DNA of 64,000 bases from Leucobacter sp. wl10 (GTDB taxonomy: Bacteria; Actinomycetota; Actinomycetes; Actinomycetales; Microbacteriaceae), in NCBI RefSeq assembly GCF_003569785.1, contig NZ_KZ983987.1, positions 62,001-126,000 on the forward strand. Direction: 5' to 3'. The notes under the pieces are model-generated. The model did no database searches. It was not told the origin of the DNA and saw only the letters and a program-made list of their open reading frames with translations. Position numbers and translations under genes: made by a program. Of the stretch, positions 26,577 through 60,203 are shown one piece after another. Position 1 is the stretch's first letter, and each line of letters opens with the position of its first letter.

Positions 26577-26593
26577 GGCCTGTCCGCACGCAA

Positions 26594-26640
26594 CAGCGAA
26601 GCGCCCCGCGATCCGTGCAGGATCGCGGGGCGCTTCGCTG
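26594..26640 (+). terminator. terminator of the alpha operon
   Basis: A 21-base perfect stem (26594-26614 with 26620-26640) closes a GTGCA loop. It isolates rplQ from the inserted catabolic genes and from truA, which follows rplQ directly in many related genomes. Confidence 0.85.
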
Positions 26641-26707
26641 TAACTTCCCCCGCCCGCCCGGCCTGCCTCCTCCTGAATCGGGGCCGGCCGCGGCGGGCGG
26701 CGGGCGC

Positions 26708-28042
26708 TCAGTGGACGTGCGAGCGGGAGAGCGACAGGTGCTTCGTCTCGCGGAACAGGAGGACCACGACGAGCGCGCTCACCACGGCGAGGCCCATCAG
26801 GTAGAAACCGGGCGCGAGGGGCGTGCCCGTGCCCGCCACGAGCCAGGTGGCGACGAACGGAGCGGTGCCGCCGAAGAGCACGTACGCGAGGGTGTAGCCG
26901 ATCGCGGAGCCGGATGATCGAACAGCGCTCGGGAACATCTCCACCAGCGCGGGCACGTTCGAGGTGCCGATGACGGCCACCATGGTGGCGAGCACCGAGG
27001 TGCCGAGCATCGCCCACCCCAGGCCGAGCGGCATGATGGAGAACGACGGCACGGTGAGCGCGACGAAGCCGATGCACGCCGTGAGCAGCATGGGCCTGCG
27101 TCCGAAGCGGTCGGAGAGCAGCGCCGCGAGCGGGCACGCGAGCGTGTAGACCATCATCGCGACCAGGTTCGTCACCATCGATTCCGTCGGTGTGTAGCCG
27201 AGGTTGGAGGTCATGTAGGCGATCATGTAGCTGCTCATGAGGTAGTAGGCCACCGCATTGGTGATGCTGTAGCCGAAGAGCGTCATGATCTGGCGGCCGC
27301 AGGTGCGAATGGCCTCGAGCAGCGGCGCCTTCGATTTGTCGGCCCGCTGCTCGAGCTCCCGGAAGACCGGGGTGTCGTCGACGCGCGACCGGATGTAGAG
27401 GCCGATGAGCCCGAGCGGAGCCGCGAGGAGGAACGGGATGCGCCATCCCCACGATTCGAGGGCCTCGGTGCTGAGCGTGAAGGTGATGAGAGCGCCGACC
27501 GTCGCGCCGGCCACGGAGGCGAGTCCCACCGTGGCGGGGATCACGCTCGCGTAGAACGCGCGCTTGCCCTCGGGGGCGTACTCGACGATGAAGGACGAGG
27601 ACCCCGTGTATTCGCCGCCGGTTGTGAACCCCTGCGTGGCGCGGAAGACGAAGAGCAGGATCGGGGCCCAGACGCCGATCACGGCGAACGGCGGGAGGAC
27701 GCCGATGGCGAAGGTCGCCGAACTCATGATGATCACGCAGAGGCCGAGCATCTTGTTGCGGCCGATGCAATCGCCGTACCGTCCGAAGAAGGCGGCTCCG
27801 AGCGGGCGGGCGATAAAGCCCCCGGCGAAGACGGCCCAGGTGGCCAGCAGGGAGGCGGTGGGCGACTCGGCGGGGAAGAACAGCTTCGCGATGGTCACCG
27901 ACATCACCGCGTACGCGGCGGAGTCGAACCACTCGACGAAGTTGCCGATGGCGGCGGCCGAGGCGACGCGTTTGAGGCTGCGGCGCCCGGGATCGCGGCC
28001 GACGTCGTTGCCGGTCGCGGGACTCTGAGTGGGTGCGGTCAT
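26708..28042 (-). CDS. MFS transporter, metabolite:H+ symporter (MHS) family
   Basis: 444 residues with 12 membrane segments. GNFVEWFDSAAYAV near 33-46, FGRYGDCIGRNKML between segments 2 and 3, and the GFTTGGEYTGSSSFIVEYAP loop mark the MHS branch (ProP, KgtP, ShiA, citrate-type carriers). It should import an organic acid, betaine or similar metabolite with protons. It lies downstream of the enoyl-CoA-hydratase-like gene on the same strand and probably feeds the CoA-dependent catabolism encoded beside it. The substrate is not predictable. Confidence 0.88.
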   Translation of the reverse strand: MTAPTQSPATGNDVGRDPGRRSLKRVASAAAIGNFVEWFDSAAYAVMSVTIAKLFFPAESPTASLLATWAVFAGGFIARPLGAAFFGRYGDCIGRNKMLGLCVIIMSSATFAIGVLPPFAVIGVWAPILLFVFRATQGFTTGGEYTGSSSFIVEYAPEGKRAFYASVIPATVGLASVAGATVGALITFTLSTEALESWGWRIPFLLAAPLGLIGLYIRSRVDDTPVFRELEQRADKSKAPLLEAIRTCGRQIMTLFGYSITNAVAYYLMSSYMIAYMTSNLGYTPTESMVTNLVAMMVYTLACPLAALLSDRFGRRPMLLTACIGFVALTVPSFSIMPLGLGWAMLGTSVLATMVAVIGTSNVPALVEMFPSAVRSSGSAIGYTLAYVLFGGTAPFVATWLVAGTGTPLAPGFYLMGLAVVSALVVVLLFRETKHLSLSRSHVH

Positions 28043-28184
28043 GATGGCTCCTCTCGAGGGGCCGTGAAGTGGGCGGGTGGGGCGGTGGACGTCGCCGTCC
28101 CGTGGACGACGACGCTGTCGGGTGGTTCGTTCCGCCTCGAGCGGTTGGGCCGGGGCGGGATGACGGGACGGGGGGCGGGCGAGG

Positions 28185-28239
28185 CCCGGATCCGGCCTGC
28201 GAGGGTTGTGGTGCAGCTCGCTCGCAGGCCGGATCCGGG
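28185..28239 (-). terminator. long hairpin after the enoyl-CoA-hydratase-like gene
   Basis: A 19-base perfect stem (28185-28203 with 28221-28239) has a 17-base loop, just 14 bases past the stop of the minus-strand gene at 28253. It probably lowers read-through into the transporter, so that the two may be expressed at different levels. Confidence 0.65.
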
Positions 28240-28252
28240 GCCGCCCGGGTCG

Positions 28253-29020
28253 TTAGCGGCTGCGGCGCTTCTCGAGGAACCTCGCCATCTCGCGCTGCGG
28301 CTCACCGGTGGCGTACGCCTCGCGGTGCACCTCCTTGGCGCTCGCGAAGGCCTCCGTGAAGTCGGCCTCCTCGATCTCGCGAATGCGGCTCTTAGTGAGG
28401 CGAACGGCGCCGGAGGGCAGCCGGCTCATCCGGTGGGCCAGCGCGATCGCCTGCTCGAGCGCCCGGCCGGGCTCGACCAGGCGATTCAGCAGGCCGAGCC
28501 GGTACGCCTCGTCGGCGTCCACGAGTTCGCCCGTGAGCGCGAACTCGGTGGTCTTGCCGCGGCCGAGCAGCCCCCACATCACCCAGAGGCCGGTGACGCT
28601 GGGGATGCCCGAGTGCACCTCGGGCTGGCCCATGCGGGCGGAGGCGCCGCCGACGCGGAGATCGGCGAGGGCCGCGAACTGGAAGCCCGAGCCGGCCGCG
28701 ACGCCGTCGACGGCCGCGATGGTGACCTGGTCGAGCTCGCGGACGGCGCGGTAGAGATCCTCGAAGCCGTCGATCCAGGCCTCCGCCGCCTCGTGATCGT
28801 CGGGATCGGTGGTCGCGGTCTCCGCGAGATCCTGTCCCGCGCAGAACGCACCTCCCGAGCCGGTGAAGACGATCGCGCGACAGCTCTCGTCGCGCGTGAG
28901 GCCGGCGAGGATCTCGATGATCCGAGAACGCATGTCCGCGGTCCAGGCGTTGAGCTTCTCGGGGCGGTTCAGCGTGACGACGGCGACTTCGCCGTCGCGT
29001 TCGAGGAGTACGTCAGGCAT
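28253..29020 (-). CDS. enoyl-CoA hydratase/isomerase family protein
   Basis: 255 residues of the crotonase fold. The two oxyanion-hole segments are GGAFCAGQDL (56-65) and GVAAGSGFQF (106-115). Glu134 (in GQPEVHSG) matches one catalytic Glu of rat hydratase, but the other is Gln114 here, so a plain hydratase reaction is doubtful; isomerase, hydrolase, lyase or dehydration variants fit as well. It is divergent from a LysR gene and adjacent to a CoA ligase and a transporter, which suggests catabolism of an acyl-CoA formed by the ligase. The ATG at 29020 has AAAGGGACT upstream. Confidence 0.85.
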   Translation of the reverse strand: MPDVLLERDGEVAVVTLNRPEKLNAWTADMRSRIIEILAGLTRDESCRAIVFTGSGGAFCAGQDLAETATTDPDDHEAAEAWIDGFEDLYRAVRELDQVTIAAVDGVAAGSGFQFAALADLRVGGASARMGQPEVHSGIPSVTGLWVMWGLLGRGKTTEFALTGELVDADEAYRLGLLNRLVEPGRALEQAIALAHRMSRLPSGAVRLTKSRIREIEEADFTEAFASAKEVHREAYATGEPQREMARFLEKRRSR

Positions 29021-29087
29021 GGAGTCCCTTTCAGTGATTCGACGGTGAATTCTGCCATCTCATCAGCCGCGGGGACGGCTGTCTAAC

Positions 29088-29124
29088 ATCAATTCCGCAT
29101 CCCGTCGATATCGAATTGATATCG
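29088..29124. promoter_or_regulatory. operator palindromes in the LysR divergent spacer
   Basis: ATCAATTC (29088-29095) pairs with GAATTGAT (29113-29120). A second perfect palindrome, CGATATC-N5-GATATCG, covers 29106-29124, ending 6 bases before the LysR start. The AT-rich inverted repeats in a 110-base divergent spacer fit LysR-type binding and autoregulation. Confidence 0.55.
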
Positions 29125-29130
29125 TGAGGC

Positions 29131-30039
29131 ATGGATATCCACCACCTGCGGTACTTCCTCGTGCTCAGCGAAGAGCTCCACTTCGGACGGGCGGCTCAGC
29201 GTCTGCACATGGCGCAGCCGCCGCTCTCCCAGCGGATCAAGTCGCTCGAGCGAGAGCTCGGCGTCGAGCTGTTCCACCGGCGGCGCACGGGCGTCGAGCT
29301 CTCCGAGGCGGGCGCGCTGCTGCTCGAGCACGCACGGGCGGTGCTGGAGAAGATGTCCGAGGCTGAGGCGGCCATGGGGCGGATCCGCCCCGGTGCGAGC
29401 GGAGTGATCCGTGTCGCGCTGCCGCCGGACACGAACCCGGTGACCATCGAGGCCCTGATCGAGGAGTTCGCCGCGTCGACCCCTGGCGTGCTGCTCGATC
29501 TGCACGAGCTGTCGACCGAGGAGCAGATTCCCCGCCTGCGGGACGGTGAGCTCGACGTCGCCGTGGTGCGGCACCCCATCAGCGCGGTGGGGCTCGAGTC
29601 GGGGCCCGTGACCTCGCGGCCGCTCGTCGCGATCCTGCGCGAGGACGACCCGCTGGCGCAGAGCGGGCGAGCCGTATCCCTCGGCGCGCTGACCGGCCAG
29701 CCGCTCGTGCTCTTCCAGCGCTACATGGCCCCGATGCTCTACGACGAGATCCTGTCCACCTGCCGCGATGCCGGATACCTGCCCTCGGCGATGCTGCACG
29801 CGCGCAACCAGAACTTCGCCCACGGCCTCGTGCTCGGCCGGCGAGGCGTCTACCTGCACGAGGCGCCCTGGAATCAGTTGCCCCCGGGCCTCGTGTGGCG
29901 CTCGCTCGAGGGGGATCCGCTGAGCTGGCGCACGTCGGCGATGTGGCTGAAGACGCGCCGTACCGAGGTCACCGACGCGTTGGTGCGGGCGGTCACCATC
30001 GGCCTTGAGAGCGGCGGGCACGCCGTATCGCGGCAGTGA
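29131..30039 (+). CDS. LysR-type transcriptional regulator
   Basis: 302 residues. The N-terminal winged helix (MDIHHLRYFLVLSEELHFGR through LERELGVELFHRR) is followed by a substrate-binding domain from about residue 90. It is divergent from the enoyl-CoA-hydratase-like gene, the usual arrangement for a regulator and its target. It probably senses the catabolised substrate or its CoA ester and controls the hydratase, transporter and ligase genes. Confidence 0.9.
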   Translation: MDIHHLRYFLVLSEELHFGRAAQRLHMAQPPLSQRIKSLERELGVELFHRRRTGVELSEAGALLLEHARAVLEKMSEAEAAMGRIRPGASGVIRVALPPDTNPVTIEALIEEFAASTPGVLLDLHELSTEEQIPRLRDGELDVAVVRHPISAVGLESGPVTSRPLVAILREDDPLAQSGRAVSLGALTGQPLVLFQRYMAPMLYDEILSTCRDAGYLPSAMLHARNQNFAHGLVLGRRGVYLHEAPWNQLPPGLVWRSLEGDPLSWRTSAMWLKTRRTEVTDALVRAVTIGLESGGHAVSRQ

Positions 30040-30059
30040 GCGACTCCGAGAGCGGGCGA

Positions 30060-30088
30060 TTCAGTTTCGGCTCGCGGTGTGCTAGGTT
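30060..30088 (+). promoter_or_regulatory. candidate promoter of the acyl-CoA ligase gene
   Basis: TTCAGT (30060-30065) and TAGGTT (30083-30088) are 17 bases apart, and TGC precedes the -10 box as in extended -10 promoters. The 170-base leader to the gene at 30263 is rich in short inverted repeats. This promoter may also serve truA. Confidence 0.45.
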
Positions 30089-30262
30089 TGCCAGCGGTGC
30101 AGCAGGAGACATCGGCTCCTGGAGATGATCGACGCCCTCGCTCTCGAGCGGCCGATCTCTCGTCGACGGAATCGATGTCCGTTCTGAAAGCCGACCCTGC
30201 GTAGCGGACCCGGCCCGATATGGGCGGCGATCCGCGCAGCACCCACGAAAGGAATCTCTGCG

Positions 30263-31828
30263 ATGAGTTCCCACCCCGATCTGTCCGTCGACATCGTCAG
30301 CGCGCTCCGGCGGAAGGCCGCGGAGCACCCGGATCGCCTCTTCGCCGCGTTCGAGGGCGAGCCCCTCGCGTTCGGCGAGCTCGACCGCCTCTCGGACGCC
30401 TTCGCCGCGCACCTGCGCGCGGAGGGCGTGGGTCCGGGCGACCGGGTCGCGGTGATGCTGCGCAATTCGATCGAGGCGATCGCCGTGTTCTTCGGCCTCG
30501 CGAAGGCGGGTGCCGCGTGGGTGCCGGTCAACCCGCAGCAGCGGGGGCCCGGCCTGGCGTACCTGATCGACCACTGCCGACCGAGCCTCGTCGTGGTCGA
30601 GGCCGAGCTGGGCGGCGTCGTGCGCGAGTGCGGCGCCGACTCCGATCCGCGACTCCTGCTGCGCGGGCCCGAGGTCGCAGGCGGACTCGCCGAGGCGCTC
30701 GCCGCGCCGAGGACGTTCGACGAGCCCGCGCCCGCGCCCGCGCCCGCGGACACCCTCGCCCTCATGTACACCTCGGGCACCACGGGGCCGCCCAAGGGCG
30801 TGGTGGTCACGCACCGCATGCTGCGCATCGCGGCGGAGGGCGCGCTCGTGGCATCCGACGGGGGCGACGGCAGCGTCTACTTCCTGTGGGAGCCGCTCTA
30901 CCACGTGGGCGGCGCGCAGGTGCTGCTGCTGCCGCTGCTGCGCGACGTGCGTCTGGCGCTCGTCTCCCGCTTCAGCGCGAGCCGGTTCTGGCGGCAGGCG
31001 AGAGAGGCGGGCGCGACGCACATCCACTACCTCGGCGGCATCCTCCAGATGCTGCTCGCCCAGGATCCGGCGCAGACGGATCGTGCGCACGGCGTGCGGG
31101 TGGCGTGGGGCGGCGGATGCGCCGCGGGGACCTTCGAGGCCGTGCGCGAGCGCTTCGGCGTCGAGATCCGCGAGTGCTACGGCATGACCGAGGGATCGAG
31201 CATCGCGACCGCGACCGACGGCAACCGGGCGGGGTCGATCGGGCGGGCGCTGCCCTGGTTCACGGTGACTGTGCGAGACGGAGAGGATCGCGCGCTGCCT
31301 CCGGGGGAGCGCGGGGAGATCGTGATCGAGTCGGAGCTGCCCGGTGCGATCTTCGCCGAGTACTACCGCAACCCGGACGCCACGGCGAACGCCCTCCGCG
31401 GCGGCGCGCTGCACACGGGCGATCTCGGTTCGCTCGACGCCGACGGCGAGCTCACCTTCCACGGGCGGCTCACCGAGAGTCTGCGCTGTCGCGGCGAGAA
31501 CGTTTCGGCGTGGGAGGTGGAGCACGTCGTCGTCTCCCATCCGGACGTGGAGGAGGCGGCCGTGATCGGCGTGGCGGCCGCGGTCGGGGAGCAGGATATC
31601 AAGCTCTTCGCGAAGCCCCGCAAGGGCGCCTCGATCGGTCCTGCGGAGCTGAGCGAGTGGCTCGAGCCTCGCCTCGCCAGGTATCAGCGCCCGCGATACA
31701 TCGCGGTGGTCGACAGCTTCGAGCGGACGCCCAGCCAGCGTATCCGCAAGCACCTGCTGAGCGCGGCGACCGACGACATCTGGGATCGCGAACGCCGCCG
31801 AGGCCGATCTGGCAGGATCGAAGCGTGA
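30263..31828 (+). CDS. AMP-forming acyl-CoA ligase (CaiC-like)
   Basis: 521 residues of the ANL superfamily. The ATP loop MYTSGTTGPPKG is near 169-180, CYGMTEGSS in the middle, and TGDLGSLDADGELTFHGR before the hinge. The GENVSAWEVE motif resembles crotonobetaine/carnitine-CoA ligase CaiC. The C-terminal catalytic Lys is probably in QRIRKHLL. It would activate a carboxylic acid taken up by the nearby transporter. The stop overlaps the truA GTG by 4 bases, so a catabolic gene is translationally coupled to a tRNA-modification gene. Confidence 0.85.
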   Translation: MSSHPDLSVDIVSALRRKAAEHPDRLFAAFEGEPLAFGELDRLSDAFAAHLRAEGVGPGDRVAVMLRNSIEAIAVFFGLAKAGAAWVPVNPQQRGPGLAYLIDHCRPSLVVVEAELGGVVRECGADSDPRLLLRGPEVAGGLAEALAAPRTFDEPAPAPAPADTLALMYTSGTTGPPKGVVVTHRMLRIAAEGALVASDGGDGSVYFLWEPLYHVGGAQVLLLPLLRDVRLALVSRFSASRFWRQAREAGATHIHYLGGILQMLLAQDPAQTDRAHGVRVAWGGGCAAGTFEAVRERFGVEIRECYGMTEGSSIATATDGNRAGSIGRALPWFTVTVRDGEDRALPPGERGEIVIESELPGAIFAEYYRNPDATANALRGGALHTGDLGSLDADGELTFHGRLTESLRCRGENVSAWEVEHVVVSHPDVEEAAVIGVAAAVGEQDIKLFAKPRKGASIGPAELSEWLEPRLARYQRPRYIAVVDSFERTPSQRIRKHLLSAATDDIWDRERRRGRSGRIEA

Positions 31829-32796
31829 ACGCTGATCCGGATCCCGCGCCTGCGGCGGAGCCCGCGGCTCCCGACGCCCGCCTGCGCCTCGACCTCGCCT
31901 ACGACGGCACCGATTTCTCGGGGTGGGCGGCGCAGCCGGGGCTGCGCACGGTGCAGGGGGAGCTGGAGGCGGCCATCGCGCACCTGCTGAGGGTGCCGCG
32001 GGTGCGGCTCACCGTCGGCGGGCGCACCGACGCCGGGGTGCACGCCAGGGGGCAGGTGGCGCACCTCGACGTCACGGCGGCTCAGCTGGCCAAGTGGGGC
32101 TCGCAGCGGCGCGGCGCGGATCCCGAACCGGGTTCTGCGGCGGCCCGCGCCGCCGACGCGCGTCTGCGGGCGCGCAAGCTCAACGGCGCGATCCGGGCGC
32201 GGTGGGGCGCGACGCGAGGTGCGGGGGCCTCCCGCGCGGCGGGATCCCCCGACCTCGTCGTGCACGCGGTGCGCGAGGTGCCCGCCGCCTTCGACGCGCG
32301 CTTCTCGGCGCTGCGGAGGCGCTACGAGTACCGGCTGCGGGGGGAGGGGATGCTGCGGGATCCGCTCACCGCGCGCTTCACCGCCGACGTGCCGCGGCCG
32401 CTCGACCTCGACGCGATGCAGCGCGCCTCGGATGAGCTGCTCGGCCTGGGCGACTTCACGACCTTCTGCCGGGCGCGCGAGGGGTCTACGGCGGTGCGCG
32501 ACCTGCTGTGCTTCGAGTGGCGCGAGACAGGCGACGGGGCGTACGCGGCGCGCATCGAGGCCGACGCGTTCTGCCACTCGATGGTGCGGGCGCTCGTGGG
32601 CGCCGTCGTCGCGGTCGGCAGCGGGCGCATCTCGGAGGGGGAGCTGATCGACCTGCGCGACGCCCGCCGGCGCACGAGCCGCTTCACGGTGATGCCGGCG
32701 CGCGGGCTGTCGCTCGAGGAGATCGCCTACCCCGCCGACGAGGCTCTCGCGGCCCGAGCGGAGCAGACCCGAGCGCGCCGCGACCCCCTCGCCTGA
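31825..32796 (+). CDS. truA: tRNA pseudouridine synthase A
   Basis: Makes pseudouridine at positions 38-40 of the anticodon arm; 323 residues. Asp69 in GGRTDAGVHARG is the catalytic residue. Residues about 95-140 form an Arg/Ala/Gly-rich insertion (KWGSQRRGAD to GASRAAG) that lengthens the protein compared with typical 260-290-residue enzymes. The GTG at 31825 overlaps the ligase stop. The usual neighbours rplM and rpsI follow. Confidence 0.95.
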   Translation: MNADPDPAPAAEPAAPDARLRLDLAYDGTDFSGWAAQPGLRTVQGELEAAIAHLLRVPRVRLTVGGRTDAGVHARGQVAHLDVTAAQLAKWGSQRRGADPEPGSAAARAADARLRARKLNGAIRARWGATRGAGASRAAGSPDLVVHAVREVPAAFDARFSALRRRYEYRLRGEGMLRDPLTARFTADVPRPLDLDAMQRASDELLGLGDFTTFCRAREGSTAVRDLLCFEWRETGDGAYAARIEADAFCHSMVRALVGAVVAVGSGRISEGELIDLRDARRRTSRFTVMPARGLSLEEIAYPADEALAARAEQTRARRDPLA

Positions 32797-32808: not shown

Positions 32809-32868
32809 ATCCGTGTGCGCCTTTCGGACGCTTGCGGGTCGTGCGAGCACCCGAAAGGCGCACAGGGA
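32809..32868. repeat. intergenic palindrome, copy 3
   Basis: Imperfect arms (32809-32835 and 32842-32868) share the TGTGCGCCTTTCGG core with copy 2; mismatches sit at the fifth base and in the inner third. It lies 13 bases after truA, where it could also act as a 3'-end stem. A second, unrelated 9-base palindrome (32872-32891) follows instead of a tandem repeat. Confidence 0.78.
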
Positions 32869-33039: not shown

Positions 33040-33486
33040 GTGACTCGCACATACTCGCCGAAGGCCTCCGAGCAGAAGCACGACTGGCTCGTCATCGACG
33101 CCACCGACGTGGTGCTCGGCCGCCTCGCCTCCCACGCCGCGGCCCTGCTCCGCGGCAAGCACAAGCCGACGTTCGCCCCCCACATGGACATGGGCGACTA
33201 CGTCGTCATCGTCAACGCCGACAAGGTCGTCCTGACCGCGGGCAAGGCGGCCAAGAAGCTGGCGTACCGCCACTCGGGCTACCCGGGCGGCCTGCGCTCG
33301 GTCAGCTACACCGAGCTGCTCGAGAAGAACCCGGAGCGCGCCGTCGAGAAGGCGATCCGCGGCATGCTGCCGAAGAACTCGCTCGGCCGCGATCAGTTCC
33401 GCAAGCTGAAGGTCTACGCCGGTGCCCAGCACCCGCACGCGGCTCAGCAGCCCACCCCCTACACCTTCGGCCAGGTCGCGCAGTAA
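33040..33486 (+). CDS. rplM: 50S ribosomal protein L13
   Basis: L13, 148 residues, an early 23S rRNA binder. The GTG at 33040 gives [20 protein letters not shown]; upstream in-frame starts read through the palindromic repeat and are rejected. [19 protein letters not shown] is the conserved C-terminal motif. It pairs with rpsI as usual. Confidence 0.96.
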
Positions 33487-59906: not shown

Positions 59907-60203
59907 GTGTCGGTTGCCATCAAGCCGCTCGAAGATCGTATTGTTATCAAGCAGGTCGAGGCAGAGCAGACCACCGCGTCCGGTCTGGTGATCCCCGACA
60001 GCGCCAAGGAGAAGCCCCAGGAGGGCGAGGTCGTCGCCGTCGGCCCGGGTCGCATCTCCGATAACGGCACGCGCATCCCGCTCGACGTCTCGGTCGGCGA
60101 CCTGGTGATCTACTCGAAGTTCGGCGGAACCGAGGTCAAGGTGGGCGGCGACGACTACCTCGTGCTCTCGGCTCGCGACATCCTCGCGGTCGTCGAGCGC
60201 TGA
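59907..60203 (+). CDS. groES: co-chaperonin GroES
   Basis: GroES, 98 residues, cap of the GroEL chamber. The GTG at 59907 gives [20 protein letters not shown], the family start, after GGAAAGAGG. The mobile loop ([18 protein letters not shown]) is normal. It is preceded by a CIRCE element. No groEL follows; rarD is next, so GroEL must be encoded elsewhere. Confidence 0.97.

Follow-up and report, generated by a model that had tools for sequence, protein, structure and literature searches.

A four-gene organic-acid cassette, coding for a transporter, a crotonase-fold protein, a LysR-type regulator and a CoA ligase, sits between rplQ and truA on the Leucobacter sp. wl10 chromosome, where it was most probably acquired laterally, the presumed route of entry, and where it would have replaced an OatA-like acyltransferase gene that most of the genus has at this place. 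From sequence comparisons, we estimate at about 80% the probability that this is what happened and that truA is transcribed as a leaderless mRNA from a promoter of its own, largely independently of the cassette. According to this model, the join between the cassette and the resident DNA would coincide with the core of a leaderless-type truA promoter or immediately precede it; the ligase open reading frame (ORF) would enter this core and stop at the first in-frame TGA, made of the truA GTG and the A that follows it, and the truA mRNA would start at about 31825, with at most an added share coming from read-through.

Results

All coordinates given here refer to the window, the whole stretch of 64,000 nucleotides that was analyzed. 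The cassette is flanked on its left by rplQ (ribosomal protein L17; 26085..26576, plus strand; Pfam Ribosomal_L17, 2e-38) and it abuts on its right truA (tRNA pseudouridine 38-40 synthase; 31825..32796, plus strand, GTG start; Pfam PseudoU_synth_1, 7.3e-26), whose product scores 136.5 bits against TIGR00071, slightly under the cut-off of 142.85. Its first two genes are on the minus strand and encode an MFS transporter whose closest family is that of the metabolite/H+ symporters (26708..28042; Pfam Sugar_tr and MFS_1) and a crotonase-fold protein of the enoyl-CoA hydratase/isomerase family (28253..29020; Pfam ECH_1, 3.1e-44), while the last two are on the plus strand and encode a LysR-type regulator (29131..30039; Pfam HTH_1, 1.1e-21, and LysR_substrate, 4.9e-29) and an AMP-forming acyl-CoA ligase (30263..31828; Pfam AMP-binding, 3.5e-73). 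These Pfam matches confirm the four gene types that an earlier sequence-only reading had placed between rplQ and truA, and the overlap of the ligase stop with the truA start that it had described is also there, as a GTGA at 31825-31828 on the plus strand in which the ligase TGA occupies 31826-31828. Downstream, truA is followed by rplM and rpsI: an inverted repeat with 13-nt arms that could be a terminator can be read from the sequence 3' of truA (32815..32863), and rplM (ribosomal protein L13; 33040..33486, plus strand, with a presumed GTG start at 33040; Pfam Ribosomal_L13, 1.1e-46) forms the right flank. Since this is a draft genome of 64 contigs, the join could in principle be a chimaera of two places created during assembly, but it lies within a 482-kb contig, both of its flanks show the normal gene order and the G+C content, which in the cassette is similar to that of neighboring DNA, is even across the join, making such an artefact extremely improbable.

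We compared the junction in 46 of 53 genus relatives, leaving out seven genomes (G032, G034, G035, G038, G041, G045 and G046) that were mostly fragmented or incomplete; two of the 46 (G011 and G029) have rplQ and truA on separate contigs, so that 44 relatives are bounded on both sides. An OatA-like acyltransferase gene is present at the junction in 42 of the 46 relatives, on the strand opposite to truA and divergent from it, and both members that we scanned have an Acyl_transf_3 domain. Most bounded relatives (31/44) have this gene in an rplQ-truA gap of 2.2-2.9 kb, nine have it together with other cargo (3.7-7.2 kb in seven cases, while the junctions of G005 and G028 reach 56 and 61 kb, respectively), and four lack it and have a gap of just 279-599 nt; in the two unbounded relatives, the OatA-like gene is directly beside truA. 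The cargo of G005 encodes an integrase core domain. The junction thus has changing cargo between the same pair of core genes, as expected of an integration hotspot, with extra cargo in 9/44 relatives, an empty junction in 4/44 and a cassette of its own in the window. The idea that rplQ, truA, rplM and rpsI are normally neighbors held for truA and rplM: among the 44 relatives showing both genes, only one has them more than 1 kb apart (the stretch fetched from G026 does not include rplM). It is weaker for rplQ and truA, which as a rule are not direct neighbors in this genus, being less than 600 nt apart in only 4/44. In the other genera of the family, represented by the 27 best-scoring loci from 150 genomes searched, the distance from rplQ to truA is at most 370 nt in 7 loci and at most 1.5 kb in 9; in the 18 others, one of which (L174) is at a contig edge, a stretch of 1.5 kb contained no rplQ match.

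Searching all four proteins against the whole fetched junctions, we found the cassette of the window in none of the 46 relatives, and the sole match was an MFS gene of G015, with 32% identity and in the opposite orientation. The comparison thus supports a lineage-specific gene set of catabolic type at this place. Conversely, the OatA-like gene is absent from the junction of the window, where a search for remnants gave chance-level matches (best E 0.044), and the best OatA-like match in the same genome is 39% identical and on a different contig. A five-protein tree grouped the window genome, with moderate support, with G043, G005 and G050 (local support 0.81), and more closely with G043 (local support 0.84). 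Since these three tree neighbors all carry the OatA-like gene at the junction while the window does not, it was most likely in the lineage of the window that the cassette took the place of this gene. There is no integrase gene within the cassette of the window, and no direct repeats bracketing it were found among the 20 largest of at least 60 repeat families.

On the left side of the junction, an inverted-repeat search detected a terminator-type hairpin 3' of rplQ (26593..26641) with perfect 22-nt arms and a 5-nt loop. Among 36 relatives in which the end of rplQ could be read, the same post-rplQ place folds with an energy below that of all 60 letter shuffles in 34, the exceptions being L083 and L097, and perfect arms of at least 14 nt are found in 25 of the 36, when the largest seen in shuffles is 9. 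A search for T-tailed terminator-like sites made four calls, none of them at either join, when shuffles lead one to expect 2.0.

On the right side, a block immediately upstream of truA is common to relatives, often reading TCTGGCAGGATCGAAG, then n, then the start codon. In the window, the corresponding sequence (31808..31824, plus strand) consists of TCTGG, the putative -10 hexamer CAGGAT (31813-31818) and 6 nt, which are directly followed by the GTG. In a frame-controlled count over the 240 nt upstream of truA, 41 of 45 genus loci (G028 being left out) had a [CT]AnnnT hexamer followed after 5-8 nt by an RTG in frame with truA, compared to 2 and 1 in the other two frames and to shuffles with a mean of 2.0 and a largest value of 7; in other genera, it was found in 21 of 27 loci, compared to 0 and 2 in the other frames and to shuffles with a mean of 0.96 and a largest value of 4. 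The pattern is consequently missing in four genus loci and in six loci of other genera. A longer block, [AT]CTG[GA]CAnnnT, is present in 38 of the 45 genus loci and the window keeps it whole; the seven loci without it have another sequence there, of the TATAGT/TATATT types in three cases. Because the alignment of the 38 loci was anchored on this longer block, its fixed letters partly result from selection, and the frame-controlled count is the fairer test. The core ends 6 nt before the start codon in 33 of the anchored loci and 7 nt before it in the five others; the three middle positions of the hexamer vary and there is no conservation upstream of the block. The first position is a C in the window and in all 38 anchored loci, thereby departing from the TANNNT consensus, while it is a T in most of the matching loci of other genera, where TAGACT, TAAACT or TAGGAT are often found at the same place.

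These observations suggested a leaderless-type promoter, and the sequence has what is looked for in such cases: a conserved hexamer with A2 and T6 that ends 5-8 nt before the start codon, here CAGGAT-6-GTG. That the block would be a translation signal instead is suggested by the AGGA located 7 nt before the GTG of the window, which could be a Shine-Dalgarno sequence, and by CAGGAT being the commonest hexamer in the anchored loci (27/38). However, the 11 remaining loci have another hexamer (CACTAT in three, CACACT, CAAGCT and CAAGAT in two each, CAGACT and CAGAAT in one each) in which A2 and T6 are still kept, so that the GGA is lost in several loci while the -10 positions are not. TAGACT or TAAACT is moreover found at the same distance in other genera, and the distance from the block to the start codon is constant even though the distance from the start codon to the conserved part of the protein varies. 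We thus consider it very unlikely that the block is a Shine-Dalgarno signal rather than a promoter, and 31808-31824 appears to be the intact core of a leaderless-type truA promoter, its activity and the leaderless start being what these comparisons predict. Counting against it, the hexamer of the genus starts with a C instead of a T and a consensus search called no sigma-70-like promoter in the region. Among 59 roughly called other genes of the window, only three have TANNNT-N6/7-RTG at their start, compared to none in either control frame, and this is an undercount since the gene caller picks the longest ORF start. As for the sequence that formerly preceded the truA core, it was replaced, so the strength of the promoter may have changed. 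Altogether, the terminator-type hairpin on the left and the promoter core on the right apparently bound the junction, and both seem to be older than the cassette.

When translated in the frame of the ligase, the truA promoter core yields the last six codons of this gene (516-521, SGRIEA) and its stop. Most ligase homologues end a few residues past a WDR motif (near residue 509 of the query), showing that the tail of the window ligase is extra, and 23 of the 38 aligned relatives have RTGA at the start of truA, none of them with a ligase gene there. The best reading of the GTGA overlap, from these alignments, is thus that the join created it incidentally.

A 4-nt overlap between a stop and a start is usually taken as a sign of coupling, and the sequence-only reading had accordingly suggested that truA expression may depend on a substrate-inducible promoter. 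In that case, truA would be co-transcribed with the ligase gene and translationally coupled to it through the GTGA, and TruA levels would mainly track the inducer of the cassette, as the shared strand, the overlap and the absence of a terminator between the two genes could indicate. Yet, truA retains its own conserved promoter core, RTGA is found in relatives that have no ligase to couple to, and the only nearby palindrome resembling a LysR box (CGATATC-GAATT-GATATCG, T-N11-A; 29106..29124) precedes lysR: the window contains no second match to it with fewer than three mismatches, and none within three mismatches is near the ligase gene or truA. Coupling as the main control is therefore improbable. 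The sequence-only reading had itself named a strong truA promoter inside the ligase gene as the finding that would speak against dependence, and the predicted core, which lies intact over the end of this gene, comes close to that. Since no terminator separates the two genes, some read-through from the ligase gene into truA is nevertheless possible. A dual supply, in which sizeable inducible read-through would add to the truA promoter, is compatible with our preferred model of a truA gene served by its own promoter and fits the ligase-truA architecture, in which no sequence feature would stop read-through; there is, however, no sign of strong induction of the ligase gene or of a LysR box acting on it, and we hold this addition to be possible but rather unlikely.

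Regarding the function of the cassette, the ligase has its best NCBIfam match with PRK06155 (NF004808; 421.4 bits, under the cut-off of 722), and it scores 243.6 bits against the crotonobetaine/carnitine-CoA ligase CaiC, not reaching the cut-off of 651. The transporter scores 367 bits against TIGR00883, under the cut-off of 443, and neither the transporter, the crotonase nor the regulator reaches an NCBIfam cut-off among the matches listed. The resemblance to carnitine-type pathways that had been proposed thus holds for the presence of a CoA ligase and of a crotonase fold and does not extend to CaiC or the other specific families among these matches. Classical enoyl-CoA hydratases have two catalytic glutamates; the crotonase-fold protein, whose closest solved chain is 4kd6, has a Gln at the position of the first Glu of 5z7r and keeps the second (QPE), so it lacks the classical pair. 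The regulator, having both HTH_1 and LysR substrate domains, is of the LysR type. The nearest named relatives of the ligase are from Rhizobium (58-59% identity), followed by Brucella, Sinorhizobium and Gluconacetobacter (53-54%) and, lower, by Herbaspirillum, Collimonas and others, with alphaproteobacterial relatives at 52-59%, which speaks in favor of our preferred model. A crotonase match is near the ligase homologue in 30 of 36 fetched ligase loci. The genes found next to ligase homologues in relatives did not point to one substrate, since the transporters and regulators among them differ. From the gene content, we infer that the cassette would serve to take up a small carboxylic acid, to convert it to its CoA thioester and to process the latter through the crotonase, with predicted control by LysR at the divergent lysR/crotonase promoter. 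Separately, a match to the LysR-box palindrome with three mismatches is located at 59933.

The nearest homologue of the ligase in the genus (56% identity) is found in G011, beside a crotonase and a LysR regulator that are 64% and 36% identical to those of the window, and these genes sit between infB and rbfA, accompanied by those of an ABC transporter and of another crotonase-ligase pair. There too, a hairpin is present 3' of infB and a leaderless-type promoter, TAGGCT-N6-ATG, precedes rbfA. In all 29 readable loci of 30 from the genus (L225 being unreadable), rbfA is preceded by a -10 pattern whose end is 5-8 nt away from the start codon, and the infB-rbfA gap is of about 155-1360 nt in the nine loci with infB within the flank. 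At rplQ-truA, the whole conserved promoter core is contained within 17 nt of the truA start and the preceding gene ends in a hairpin, so cargo could be swapped directly upstream of truA without harm. On the basis of these two junctions, we tentatively propose, while considering it unlikely as a general statement, that leaderless core genes may be insertion-tolerant docking sites for cargo.

Discussion

We read this locus as a core-gene junction of variable content that has received a foreign cassette, a kind of locus already known, and in which truA would be insulated from its new neighbors. Comparison suggests that the overlap between the ligase gene and truA arose when a foreign gene was attached to a leaderless promoter that was already in place. 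This corrects a plausible view of how a tRNA-modification enzyme is controlled and suggests a testable rule on where acquired genes can adjoin essential translation genes in actinobacteria. If the docking-site proposal were true, junctions of translation genes with a leaderless downstream gene would form a general class of settling sites for catabolic genes in these bacteria. A literature search, with most subscription journals outside its scope, found no paper treating truA, rplQ, operon and actinobacteria together.

The cassette can be compared with two known types of loci. Like the carnitine (Cai) pathway, it includes a CoA ligase and a protein with the crotonase fold, but there is no CoA-transferase or acyl-CoA dehydrogenase among its four genes. 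The ATP-dependent acyl-CoA ligases of the PRK06155 type (NF004808), which are mostly proteobacterial, are the nearest family of the cassette ligase even though it scores below their cut-off; a crotonase gene is near the ligase gene in both, whereas the transporters differ, being of ABC types in several relatives and of the MFS type in the window.

Hotspots located between core genes and devoid of mobile elements are known (PMC5635113). Compared with what is described there, the rplQ-truA junction likewise has changing cargo between conserved core genes and the cassette of the window is alike in having no integrase gene, while the G005 cargo, with its integrase core domain, is unlike them. Finally, leaderless genes of Actinobacteria are marked by a TANNNT motif some 12 bp upstream of their start codon (PMC3160421), and M. 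tuberculosis promoters have a dominant -10 element and no -35 consensus (PMC3898074). With the genes described in these two papers, truA shares A2 and T6 of the hexamer, the same 12 bp from the first base of the hexamer to the GTG and the lack of conservation at -35. It differs from them in that this genus mostly has CAnnnT instead of TAnnnT, preceded by TGG as in extended -10 promoters, and in that a foreign gene has its last codons within the truA core.

Variable cargo at the rplQ-truA junction and a related insert elsewhere

The distance between rplQ and truA reaches 56 kb in one genus relative, G005 (fetched loci L158, L159, L110 and L063), and 61 kb in another, G028 (L160-L163). Because a P450-ferredoxin fusion, an FAA hydrolase and a GCV_T protein are common to both inserts, their cargo may be related, judging from this shared gene content; that of G005 also contains an integrase core domain close to truA. 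Further cargo was found at the same junction in L075 (9774-14480), L084 (9487-14529), L079 (12418-14421) and L102 (12557-14371), and consists of a large secreted protein resembling a nuclease/5'-nucleotidase fusion, one catalase-like and one lipase-like protein, all named by reading the sequences rather than by a family search.

Homologues of the window ligase (30263-31828, plus strand), crotonase and LysR regulator are present at another site in the relative G011, in a catabolic-type insert of about 9 kb located between infB and rbfA (L105, 6993-19291). In the window itself, an inverted repeat with perfect 13-nt arms (32815-32863), read from the sequence 3' of truA, is possibly the terminator of this gene.

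Active-site residues of the ligase and crotonase

Comparison with FadD13 showed that the window ligase carries an arginine in its C-terminal part (SQR, at about 31720-31760) at the position of the lysine of the FadD13 TGK motif, a residue with a catalytic role. This arginine is found in 32 of the 33 homologous loci examined (L105-L109 and L112-L139), the sequence of the remaining one, L136, ending before that position.

The window crotonase (28253-29020, minus strand) may not be a classical hydratase. When it was aligned with the short-chain enoyl-CoA hydratase 5z7r, a glutamine replaced the first glutamate of that enzyme, and 4kd6, its closest solved relative, also has a glutamine at this same position.
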